Under the pieces are notes generated by a model, which saw nothing but the letters and a program-made list of their open reading frames with translations, was not told where the DNA came from and ran no database searches. A stretch of 64,000 nt of DNA from Colwellia sp. 1_MG-2023. GTDB taxonomy: Bacteria; Pseudomonadota; Gammaproteobacteria; Enterobacterales; Alteromonadaceae. Where the stretch lies: NCBI RefSeq assembly GCF_030546755.1, contig NZ_JAUOPE010000011.1:1-64000 (forward strand). Direction: 5' to 3'. Below are positions 32,317-44,249 of this stretch, piece by piece; position 1 is the stretch's first letter; each line of letters opens with the position of its first letter. The position numbers and the translations under genes are program-made.

Positions 32317-33681
32317 TTAGGATGAAAGAGTTCTAGTCAAGTTAGAATAATCTTCTTTTATATCGTGTGATTCTTCACGTAAATCTTTTACTTTACGGCA
32401 TGCATGCAACACTGTTGTATGATCTTTACCGCCAAACGCGTCCCCTATTTCAGGTAAACTATGGTTTGTTAACTCTTTAGATAATGCCATTGCTATTTGT
32501 CTAGGTCTAGCAACAGATCTATTTCTTCTTTTTGAAAGTAAATCAGCCACTTTAATCTTATAATATTCAGCAACAGTTTTTTGTATATTGTCGATAGTAA
32601 CTAACTTATCCTGTAAGGCAAGTAAATCTCTTAACGCTTCTTTAACAAAATCAATATTAATCGCTCGACCGGTGAAGTTTGCATTAGCAATAACACGGTT
32701 AAGTGCGCCTTCTAATTCTCGCACATTTGAGCGTAAGCGTTTAGCAATAAAAAAAGCAACTTCATCTGCTAGATTAATATGACTTTCTTGTGCTTTGCGC
32801 TTGAGAATAGCCACACGTGTTTCAAGCTCTGGAGGTTCAATAGCAATCGTTAAGCCCCAGCCAAATCGAGATTTAAGCCTATCTTCAACATCAACTTCTT
32901 TAGGGTATCGATCACTCGTTAGAATAATTTGTTGATTGCCTTCAAGTAGCGCATTAAAAGTATGGAAAAACTCTTCTTGTGTTCTATCTTTACCAGCAAA
33001 AAATTGAATATCATCTATTAATAGCGCATCAACACTTCGATAATATTGTTTAAATTTTTCCATGGCATTGTTTTGTAACGCCCTAACCATATCTTGCACA
33101 AATCGTTCAGAGTGCATATAAGCTATTTTTGCATTGGGTTTATTTAATAAAATACCATTACCAACTGCGTGCAATAAATGGGTTTTACCTAAACCTGTAC
33201 CACCATAAATAAATAAAGGATTATAAGCGGAACCAGGGTTATCAGCTACTTGAGAAGCAGCAGCTCGTGCTAATTGATTAGATTTACCTTCGACAAAATT
33301 GTCAAAAGTATAATTAACTCTAACATTAGTTTTTTTAGGAATATTAGGCTCGGGATCTATATTTTGCTGAGGTCTACTCTCCTTCATTGAAGGAGCAAAA
33401 TGACTATCAGAATGAGCAGGAGCAACTGCTGCTTTAGGAATACTACCAACATCGAAGCGCAATAAAGGTGGGTTGCCATTTTCTTCAAACGAAACAAGTT
33501 CATTGATCCGTGCAACATACTTATCACGTACCCAATCTAGAACAAACCGATTAGGTGCATATAAAGTCATGATATTATTATCAATAACGCATTGAAGTGG
33601 GCGGATCCACATACTAAATTGTTGAGCAGGAAGTTCTTCTTGCAAAATAGAAAGGCAACGTTGCCACAAAGAATGATCCAA
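32317..33681 (-). CDS. dnaA: Chromosomal replication initiator DnaA
   Basis: An AAA+ initiator that binds DnaA boxes and melts the origin. The 454 residues include domain I ([26 protein letters not shown]), a short linker, the ATPase with Walker [10 protein letters not shown] (160-168) and Walker [11 protein letters not shown], and the C-terminal helix-turn-helix with DHTTVLHA. The start codon is TTG (33679-33681) with AGGAG six bases before it; the next ATG lies inside domain I. A low-efficiency start suits a tightly limited protein. DnaA boxes in the upstream region suggest self-regulation. Confidence 0.97.
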
Positions 33682-34035
33682 GAAAAGCTCCTAGCTAATA
33701 TAACGCCAACAATTTGAAAAAATGGGTAGGCTTTATTAATGTTATTTTTATTTGATATGGCATTATCTCCTTAGTTATCCACAACTTCAACATATGTCTG
33801 AAAAATAAATTAACCAACAAGCCCTAAAAACAATTAACATATTGATAAATTTATAAATAAATGACTTATAATTTATTTACTCAAAAATATAATAGATAGA
33901 TTAAATTACTATTTAGAACGGTGAAAAGCACAAATAATCAACAACATGATCTGATTTTGTTATCAAACTGTGGATATTAATCAGATCCACTAAAGATCAT
34001 CAAAGGATCTTTTCTTATTATATTGATATTAGTCG
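33682..34035. other. dnaA-rpmH intergenic region with origin-like features
   Basis: A 457-bp AT-rich gap (to 34138) between divergent dnaA and rpmH. A perfect DnaA box TTATCCACA lies at 33775-33783 and a one-mismatch box on the minus strand at 33969-33977. Four GATC sites begin at 33948, 33984, 33995 and 34006, the last three exactly 11 bp apart. GATCTTTTCTTAT (34006-34018) is one mismatch from the E. coli DUE 13-mer consensus. The region could be the dnaA control region, a replication origin as in Pseudomonas, or both. Confidence 0.55.
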
Positions 34036-34064
34036 TTGACAATTATTCCTATTATGTATAGAAT
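34036..34064 (+). promoter_or_regulatory. Sigma-70 promoter for rpmH operon
   Basis: A perfect -35 TTGACA (34036-34041) has a 17-bp spacer and a -10 TAGAAT (34059-34064, five of six). It stands about 75 bp before rpmH, a strong promoter as expected for a ribosomal protein operon. Confidence 0.75.
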
Positions 34065-34138
34065 TCTGCCTCTTTTTTAGACCCAGTGTGCTCAAAACGG
34101 CGGTTATGCCAGGGCAACAACAACCGACGGATAGCGTA

Positions 34139-34273
34139 ATGAAAAGAACATTTCAACCTAGCGTATTAAAACGTAAGCGTAATCACGGATTCCGTGCTCG
34201 CATGGCAACTAAAAACGGCCGTGCTGTAATTGCACGTCGTCGTGCTAAAGGCCGTGCAAGTCTTAGCGCTTAA
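34139..34273 (+). CDS. rpmH: 50S ribosomal protein L34
   Basis: A 44-residue, highly basic ribosomal protein of the large subunit, with the family pattern [19 protein letters not shown]. The ATG at 34139 is chosen because it matches L34 exactly; the frame continues upstream but without family character. It leads the rpmH-rnpA-yidD-yidC run downstream of a strong promoter. Confidence 0.97.
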
Positions 34274-41954: not shown

Positions 41955-42359
41955 TCAATATATCGAAAAGTTATTCACAGCATCACACTAAAAAACAACC
42001 AAATGTGGATAAAAATAAAATAAGCTATGAATTAACGGTTATTTTCCAGTTTGTAATAAATTAATAAATACTCATTGTGGATAACTAGATGTTTTGATCA
42101 AAGCTTATAAGCTAATTGATCAACGTTTGATCACAATAAATGATCCTACTTAGTCAATTGATCTTTATAAAGAAAAAGGACTTACCCACAGAAAATCCAT
42201 TTACTAATAAGTAATAATAATAAGATCTTTAAATAGATCTTATATATTATTTAACGATCCACTGAAGATCATTTATTGAAAATGATCGTTTCACTTAACA
42301 ATAAAAACAGTTAAAATACGTGCCCTTTTATTTTTAAATATTTTTCTAAGGTTTAATTT
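41955..42359. other. oriC: Candidate chromosomal replication origin oriC
   Basis: A 405-bp AT-rich gap in the E. coli/Vibrio oriC position. DnaA-box-like 9-mers: TTATTCACA (41971-41979), TGTGGATAA (42004-42012 and 42076-42084, perfect boxes on the minus strand), and TTACCCACA (42182-42190). Ten GATC sites start at 42096, 42118, 42129, 42142, 42160, 42224, 42236, 42256, 42267 and 42284. The mnmG-side stretch 42202-42255 is almost pure A/T, like a DNA-unwinding element. An 8-bp-stem hairpin lies at 42267-42287. Confidence 0.85.
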
Positions 42360-44249
42360 ATGTGGTATCAAGAATCATACGATGTCATTGTTGTTGGTGG
42401 TGGACATGCAGGTACTGAAGCTGCATTAGCCTCAGCACGTATGGGCTGTAAGACTCTATTGCTTACTCATAATATTGATACTTTAGGGCAAATGTCGTGT
42501 AATCCAGCCATTGGTGGGATTGGCAAAGGACATTTGGTTAAAGAAATTGATGCGTTAGGTGGTTTAATGGCAACCGCTACGGATCATGCCGCTATTCAAT
42601 TTAGAACACTAAACGCGAGTAAAGGGCCTGCTGTAAGAGCAACCAGAGCTCAAGCTGATAGAGTGTTATATCGTTCATTTGTAAGAAATTTTTTAGAAAA
42701 CCAAGAAAATTTGACCATCTTTCAACAACCTTGTGATGATCTTATTTTAGAAAATGATCAAGTTGTCGGTGTTTCTACTCAGATGGGCTTAAAATTTAAA
42801 GCCCAATCTGTTGTGTTAACCGTTGGTACTTTCCTCGCAGGTCAAATACATATTGGTATGAATAACTATCAAGGTGGTAGAGCTGGCGATCCTGCAAGTG
42901 TTAATTTAGCGAATAAATTAAAAGATTTACCTTTTAGAATTGATCGATTAAAAACAGGTACACCACCGCGTTTAGATGCTAGAACCCTTGATTTTTCTCA
43001 AATGGAAGAACAACCAGGTGATGATCCAAGACCGGTCTTTTCATTTTTAGGATCGCGAAACGATCACCCAGAGCAAGTATCTTGTTTTATTACACATACC
43101 AATGAAAAAACTCACGATATTATTCGAGGTGGCTTAGATAGATCTCCTATGTACACCGGCGTAATTGAAGGGATTGGTCCTCGTTACTGTCCATCTATTG
43201 AAGATAAAATTCATCGTTTTTCTGAAAAAGATTCACATCAAATTTTTGTTGAACCTGAAGGTTTAACCACTCATGAGATTTATCCAAACGGTATTTCTAC
43301 AAGCTTACCTTTTGATGTACAAATGAATTTAGTTCGTTCGATAAAAGGTTTTGAAAATGCTCATATCACTCGACCAGGTTACGCAATTGAGTATGACTTT
43401 TTTGATCCTCGTGATTTAAAACAAACCTTAGAAAGTAAATTAATCAAAAACTTATATTTTGCGGGCCAAATTAACGGTACCACTGGTTATGAAGAAGCTG
43501 GTGCGCAAGGTTTAATTGCTGCAACTAACGCGGCTGCCAGAGTGCAAGGTAAAGATGAATTAGTACTTGGTAGAGACCAAGCTTATATGGGTGTTTTAGT
43601 GGATGACTTAGCAACCTTGGGCACTAAAGAACCTTATCGTATGTTCACTTCTCGCGCTGAATATCGTTTATTATTACGTGAAGATAATGCCGATATTCGC
43701 TTAACTGAAATTGGTCACAAGCTTGGTTTAGTTGATGAAAATCGCTGGCGTCGTTTTAATGAAAAAATGGAAAATATTGAAGTTGAACGTCAGCGTTTAA
43801 AGTCAAAATGGATCCAAAAAGATCATCCGGCAGCAGAAAAAATAAATCCATTATTGAAAAATCCTATCAGTCGTGAAAATAATCTTGAAGATTTAATTCG
43901 TCGTCCTGAAGTTCGTTATGATGATCTTATGGAAATTGAAGGTATTGGGCCTGCGCTTGCAGATAAACAAGCGGCTGAGCAAGTAGAAATTCAAATTAAA
44001 TATGCTGGTTATATTGAACGTCAATTGGATGATATTGCAAAGAAAAAACGTCATGAAGATACCTTAATTCCGCATGATTTTGATTATGCTCAAATATCAG
44101 GGTTGTCTAACGAAGTGGTTGCAAAGTTAACGGATGCAAAACCTGAGTCAATTGGAAAAGCATCACGAATTTCAGGAATAACCCCTGCAGCAATTTCACT
44201 TTTACTTGTGTATTTAAAAAAACATGGCCTTTTAAGAAAGTCAGCGTAA
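42360..44249 (+). CDS. mnmG: tRNA uridine-34 modification enzyme MnmG
   Basis: The FAD-dependent partner of MnmE (formerly GidA). The 629 residues start with the FAD motif [19 protein letters not shown]. Conserved signatures include [18 protein letters not shown] and [15 protein letters not shown]. Length and start match E. coli. It leads the mnmG-rsmG-parAB run and borders oriC. Confidence 0.97.

Follow-up and report, generated by a model that had tools for sequence, protein, structure and literature searches.

Conserved GATC clusters at oriC and upstream of rpmH in a Colwellia genome as probable targets of Dam/SeqA-type sequestration

In Escherichia coli, SeqA prevents DNA replication from restarting too early. 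The sequestration of oriC and of the dnaA promoter in that species are the described systems closest to the locus analyzed here. In its available passages, PMC5835720 gives nine GATCs within 225 bp for the E. coli dnaA-rpmH region. Those of PMC5145175 describe the GATC spacing of E. coli oriC as not corresponding to whole turns of the helix and place efficient in vitro binding of SeqA at 2–3 turns rather than one, and in the passages at hand this paper and PMC11853086 differ on the weight of helical phase for SeqA. GATC phasing as such is already in print. For the Alteromonadales, the available parts of the gammaBOriS study (PMC7174414) give AGATCTTAAGATCT as an unwinding-region motif and report that GATC motifs are confined to Dam-bearing taxa; the word “spacing” is absent from the main text, and the dnaA-rpmH region is not treated in the passages at hand. 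Among the papers listed by our literature searches, no study of GATC spacing surfaced for the Colwellia clade.

The window analyzed, i.e., the whole stretch of DNA, comprises 64,000 nucleotides of Colwellia sp. 1_MG-2023, and no RNA family was found at gathering score within it. For its MnmE, the named proteins that match best come from Colwelliaceae, Colwellia, and Thalassotalea. The genes and intergenic regions concerned are as follows.

32317..33681, minus strand: dnaA, assigned from sequence and gene order
33682–34138: dnaA-rpmH intergenic region, with four GATCs
34139..34273, plus strand: rpmH, ribosomal protein L34
41511..41954, plus strand: mioC-like flavodoxin gene, assigned from position and sequence
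405 bp between mioC and mnmG: mioC-mnmG intergenic region, with DnaA boxes and ten GATCs
42360..44249, plus strand: mnmG (gidA)

The mioC-oriC-mnmG region at 42256 is a classical oriC, the replication origin. In common with the sequestered oriC of E. coli, it is GATC-dense and lies between mioC and mnmG, it has GATCs in the unwinding region, and seqA and dam are present; with the Alteromonadales oriC of gammaBOriS, in the available passages (PMC7174414), it shares the unwinding-region motif AGATCTTAAGATCT. The dnaA-rpmH region has a GATC cluster and a DnaA box in common with the sequestered dnaA promoter of E. coli. Boxes of the form TTWTNCACA occur three times in mioC-mnmG (41971, 42004, and 42076) and once in dnaA-rpmH (33775), together with one near-match. 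A sequence-only reading of this DNA had called both regions origin-like; mioC-mnmG does look like an origin, whereas the dnaA-rpmH region is more plausibly DNA that controls dnaA than another origin. Its features are listed below.

33775..33783, plus strand: DnaA box TTATCCACA, on the dnaA side of the intergenic region
33948..33951: single GATC, preceding the triad by 36 bp; 2 of 56 clade genomes have a GATC at this offset
33969..33977, minus strand: DnaA-box-like ATATCCACA, adjoining the GATC triad; conserved in the clade (sequence and 17-genus alignment)
33984..34009: GATC triad, spaced 11 + 11 bp
34036..34064, plus strand: rpmH promoter TTGACA-17-TAGAAT, agreeing with the consensus at 11 of 12 letters; conserved across the 17 genera aligned

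The GATCs at 33984, 33995, and 34006 are exactly 11 bp apart, as the sequence-only reading had stated. The pattern GATC-N7-GATC-N7-GATC occurs once in the 4.03-Mb genome, at this triad, and GATC-N7-GATC occurs at 35 genomic places, four of which are in the two intergenic regions (33984, 33995, 42256, and 42118). Within 400 bp upstream of rpmH there are four GATCs (1.04 expected from composition). The triad is situated 30–52 bp upstream of the −35 box of rpmH, with the start of dnaA some 300 bp away. Among 56 genomes of the Colwellia clade, a GATC started at −30, −41, and −50 from the −35 box, give or take 2 bp, in 50, 46, and 33 genomes, respectively, under a strict anchor. In a further scan, which set the −35 anchor wrongly in G035, G123, G091, and G151, at least one adjacent spacing of 9–12 bp was present in 53 of the 56 genomes and the exact 11-11 triad in 6, so that the latter was rejected as a hallmark of the clade. 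In an alignment of 17 genera, which omits 2 of the 19 genera for short upstream sequence, the GATC columns of the triad were conserved at 0.82–0.94, and the gappy spacers averaged 0.20–0.25.

E. coli K-12 also has a GATC triad in this region, 11 and 10 bp apart; it (L304 455–479) falls inside the annotated ysdD CDS at 427–507. The two regions differ in the number of GATCs, four here versus nine in E. coli. Their placement differs as well: in the clade, the cluster lies 30–50 bp ahead of the rpmH −35 box, approximately 300 bp from the dnaA start. A promoter of the E. coli dnaA2p type has GATCs in its −10 and −35 boxes. A consensus scan, which a weak promoter could escape, found no dnaA-directed promoter on the minus strand over 33948–34009. 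The sole promoter-like match on that strand, at 33790–33762, was weak and overlapped the DnaA box at 33775 (count 2 versus 2.7 in shuffles).

At oriC, the GATC elements were as follows.

42118..42132: GATC pair, 11 bp, GATCAACGTTTGATC; conserved in the 17-genus alignment; absent from the list of the sequence-only reading
42224..42239: GATC pair, 12 bp, in the AT-rich unwinding region; both GATCs in 17 of the 17 genera aligned
42256..42270: GATC pair, 11 bp, with poorly conserved spacer letters
42284..42287: last GATC of the oriC ladder

The pair at 42256 and 42267, 11 bp apart, was confirmed. There are 13 GATCs in the 500 bp upstream of mnmG, where composition predicts 1.14. The ladder, at 0, 12, 32/33, 43/44, and 60/61 bp, recurred in most of the 52 clade genomes that could be anchored; the anchor itself demanded a 12-bp GATC pair, and the conservation of that step rests on the 17-genus alignment. 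Four of the 56 genomes had no anchor, namely G002 (27 bp of sequence only), G096, G127, and G041; in the genus of the last three, the unwinding-region pair is 13 bp apart, as seen through G096 in the 17-genus alignment. At least 42 of the 52 anchored genomes had a spacing of 10–12 bp in the pair following the unwinding-region pair, a lower bound given that the anchor fell one GATC early in G035, G123, G091, G151, and G171. In the alignment, the GATC columns of the 42256 pair scored 0.82–1.0 versus 0.49 for its spacer. Six genomes of two genera had compensating gaps, with 10 bp in place of 11 followed by 18 in place of 17. These gaps and the conserved GATC columns fit selection on the position of the sites, although the genomes are related by descent. 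The spacings on the mnmG side, 12, 20, 11, and 17 bp here (20 or 21 in relatives), differ from the 21, 16, 15, and 13 bp of E. coli. Separately, an 11-bp GATC pair lies within the mnmG coding sequence (43051–43065).

We also examined the spacing of adjacent GATCs across relatives. In dnaA-rpmH of the clade, counted in one genome per genus and no farther than 75 bp from the rpmH −35 box, spacings of 9–12 bp made up a fraction of 0.82 of the adjacent spacings, compared with 0.15 under uniform placement. The 25 SeqA-positive genomes outside the clade had 25 spacings of 9–12 bp, 2 of 14–17 bp, and 6 of 19–22 bp in dnaA-rpmH, and 71, 24, and 50 spacings in the same classes at oriC. In Vibrionaceae and Motilimonas, no excess of 9–12 bp spacings was found in the 450 bp upstream of rpmH (9 versus 7.3 expected, in 12 of the 18 loci tried). 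These comparisons of sequence support the view that a near-one-turn, same-face spacing of GATCs has been kept at both places, well beyond the letters of the spacers.

The genome encodes both proteins that sequestration would require. Its seqA product (PF03925, E = 9.9e-38) has 189 aa, with N-terminal and DNA-binding (C-terminal) domains that both match solved SeqA chains, and its dam matches TIGR00571 (E = 2.3e-91). SeqA was found in 131 of the 157 genomes of the family sample; six of the 26 PF03925-negatives were counted as such for their absence from the SeqA match list. When genomes of the family and of the order level were counted together, a 9–12 bp pair in dnaA-rpmH was present in 65 of 75 SeqA-positive genomes versus 1 of 22 PF03925-negative genomes, after six with <300 bp upstream of rpmH were dropped (G014, G019, G044, G035, G091, and G066), and a 9–12 bp pair at oriC in 76 of 78 versus 10 of 23, after two with <370 bp were dropped (G002 and G018); these counts ignore kinship. 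The lone PF03925-negative genome with a dnaA-rpmH pair, G116, is an 85% complete assembly, and the other three sampled congeners have SeqA. Both regions were obtained for 19 of the 26 family negatives, of which short rows were omitted (G159 upstream of mnmG and G100 upstream of rpmH). The median number of GATCs upstream of mnmG was 13 in SeqA-positives (71 rows) versus 5 in family SeqA-negatives (18 full-length rows), and upstream of rpmH it was 3 (66 rows) versus 1 (18 full-length rows).

Dam was searched in 59 genomes of the family sample and was present in all seven of the SeqA-negatives among them whose regions were obtained (G004, G008, G037, G019, G020, G023, and G029); the presence of Dam is therefore not enough to account for the cluster in dnaA-rpmH. 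Ten of the 75 SeqA-positive genomes had no 9–12 bp pair in dnaA-rpmH, and in genus g32 the pair was missing from both the SeqA-positive G033 and the negative G090, whose oriC GATC counts were 12 and 4, respectively. In five PF03925-negatives (G069, G106, G075, G109, and G092), oriC has stayed rich in GATC and phased, and dnaA-rpmH has no 9–12 bp pair. Because these five keep a phased oriC, the GATCs there may have some other role, or SeqA may be too divergent in these genomes to detect; a recent loss of SeqA or another reader of the oriC GATCs could also be considered. Elsewhere in the Colwellia genome, a GATC triad spaced 11 and 10 bp apart (L307 452–476) lies at the 3′ end of a damX-like gene, approximately 150 bp ahead of dam. 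The idea that this triad provides a link to dam was rejected: of 20 relatives, only one, the congener G002, had a 9–12 bp pair there.

We conclude that the GATC clusters are a real, conserved feature of a known kind, and we consider it likely that both places are Dam/SeqA sequestration targets, as in E. coli, here helically phased. The working unit would be the set of GATCs about one helical turn apart. Dam would methylate the GATCs at oriC and dnaA-rpmH; by analogy with E. coli, passage of the fork would leave them hemimethylated, SeqA dimers would bind neighboring GATCs that share a face of the helix, and the bound SeqA would make the origin and dnaA unavailable during part of the cell cycle. 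The positions of the GATCs, their conservation, the divergence of the spacers, the presence of seqA and dam, and the co-occurrence with SeqA are direct observations, and the E. coli system suggests hemimethylation, SeqA binding, and the effects on initiation and dnaA expression. SeqA-like binding to same-face GATCs had been proposed in the sequence-only reading, and this part of the proposal is retained: the same-face spacing is conserved, seqA and dam are present, and the dnaA-rpmH cluster is nearly confined to genomes with SeqA, which together argue for it. A more specific version, which we regard as rather unlikely, is that in Colwellia-like bacteria the triad is a dedicated, helically phased SeqA operator fixed in register with the rpmH promoter. 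Through it, SeqA would set the timing of dnaA and also of the rpmH-rnpA-yidC-mnmE transcripts following every replication, with one-turn phasing achieving what the less regular array of E. coli achieves through its number of sites.

The other part of that proposal was a 17-bp element shared by both regions and linking dnaA control to initiation. The two 17-mers are indeed present at 42256–42272 and 33984–34000 and differ at one base, and a genome search at 0–2 mismatches found just these two copies in 4.03 Mb, with no scattered extras. At exactly 3 mismatches there were 14 further places genome-wide, and the pattern read backwards matched 7 genomic places at up to 3 mismatches. Within the window, GATCCACTRAAGATCAT had only two matches at up to 3 mismatches (0.31 expected), and at least two such matches occurred in 3 of 100 shuffled windows. 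Given two GATC-N7-GATC elements, the chance that at least 8 of the 9 free letters agree is approximately 5e-4 for one preset comparison, before allowing for the other comparisons open to a reader.

The element as a link between the sites was not borne out in relatives. Neither congener (G001 or G002) has the 17-mer at either site within 1 mismatch, and a look-alike at both sites with 2 mismatches is found in neither. In G001, a look-alike with 2 mismatches lies at the neighboring GATC pair of dnaA-rpmH, and the 42256-type pair at oriC is missing its second GATC; G002 keeps the GATC positions in both regions and has the oriC word with 2 mismatches, and its dnaA-rpmH spacer letters differ. At up to 1 mismatch, the 17-mer was found in 6 of the 59 genomes searched, i.e., the Colwellia genome itself (G000) and five others. 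In four of these five, contig or position puts the word outside both sites; the fifth is G043, in which mnmG and rpmH were not found. In the 27 of 56 clade genomes with an 11-bp GATC pair at both places (G002 not included), the two sites of a genome shared at best 3.30 of the 9 free letters on average, compared with 3.07 between genera (permutation p = 0.13). Only G000 among these 27 reached 8 free letters, the next best being 6, and 8 was also reached in 1 of 664 between-genus comparisons (G108 versus G143).

A shared 17-bp operator was therefore rejected, the two sites being no more alike within a genome than with shuffled partners. That one non-SeqA regulator reads all 17 letters and so ties dnaA to initiation is extremely improbable: it would account for both genomic copies at up to 2 mismatches falling in these two regions, and it is opposed by the differences between congeners, the shuffled-partner comparison, and the placement of the word in other genomes. 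The match is most likely due to chance, overlying a real conserved GATC feature, as would arise when the 7-base spacers of two GATC pairs happen to agree.

Two readings concern the GATCs themselves. They might serve chiefly as low-affinity sites for ATP-DnaA (AGATCT-like) or as repeats of the unwinding region, with methylation secondary. The available passages of PMC4285127 give AGATCT as a sequence recognised by E. coli DnaA, the flanks at oriC are biased (51 AGATCT and 62 TGATCA among 191 GATCs; one genome per genus, 19 genera), and some PF03925-negatives keep a phased oriC. However, the flanks in dnaA-rpmH lack this bias (4 AGATCT among 62), and the cluster there is missing where SeqA is missing, so we consider this reading improbable; AGATCT-like DnaA sites at oriC may nevertheless be a reason why phased origins survive without a SeqA match. 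It is very improbable that the clustering is inherited, driven by composition, or for mismatch repair, with no regulatory role. Homologous sites do share ancestry, and our counts ignore kinship, but GATC outlasts the spacers in the 17-genus alignment, the damX-like triad before dam is hardly kept among relatives, and those SeqA-negatives in which dam was found have no dnaA-rpmH pair.

Sequestration by Dam and SeqA thus remains the preferred reading, and the family offers a comparative case for SeqA, in which relatives without SeqA lack the dnaA-rpmH cluster though those checked keep Dam. SeqA-positive relatives keep the position of the GATCs, near one-turn spacing, and not the sequence. These loci would be natural templates for asking how far helical phase matters to SeqA.
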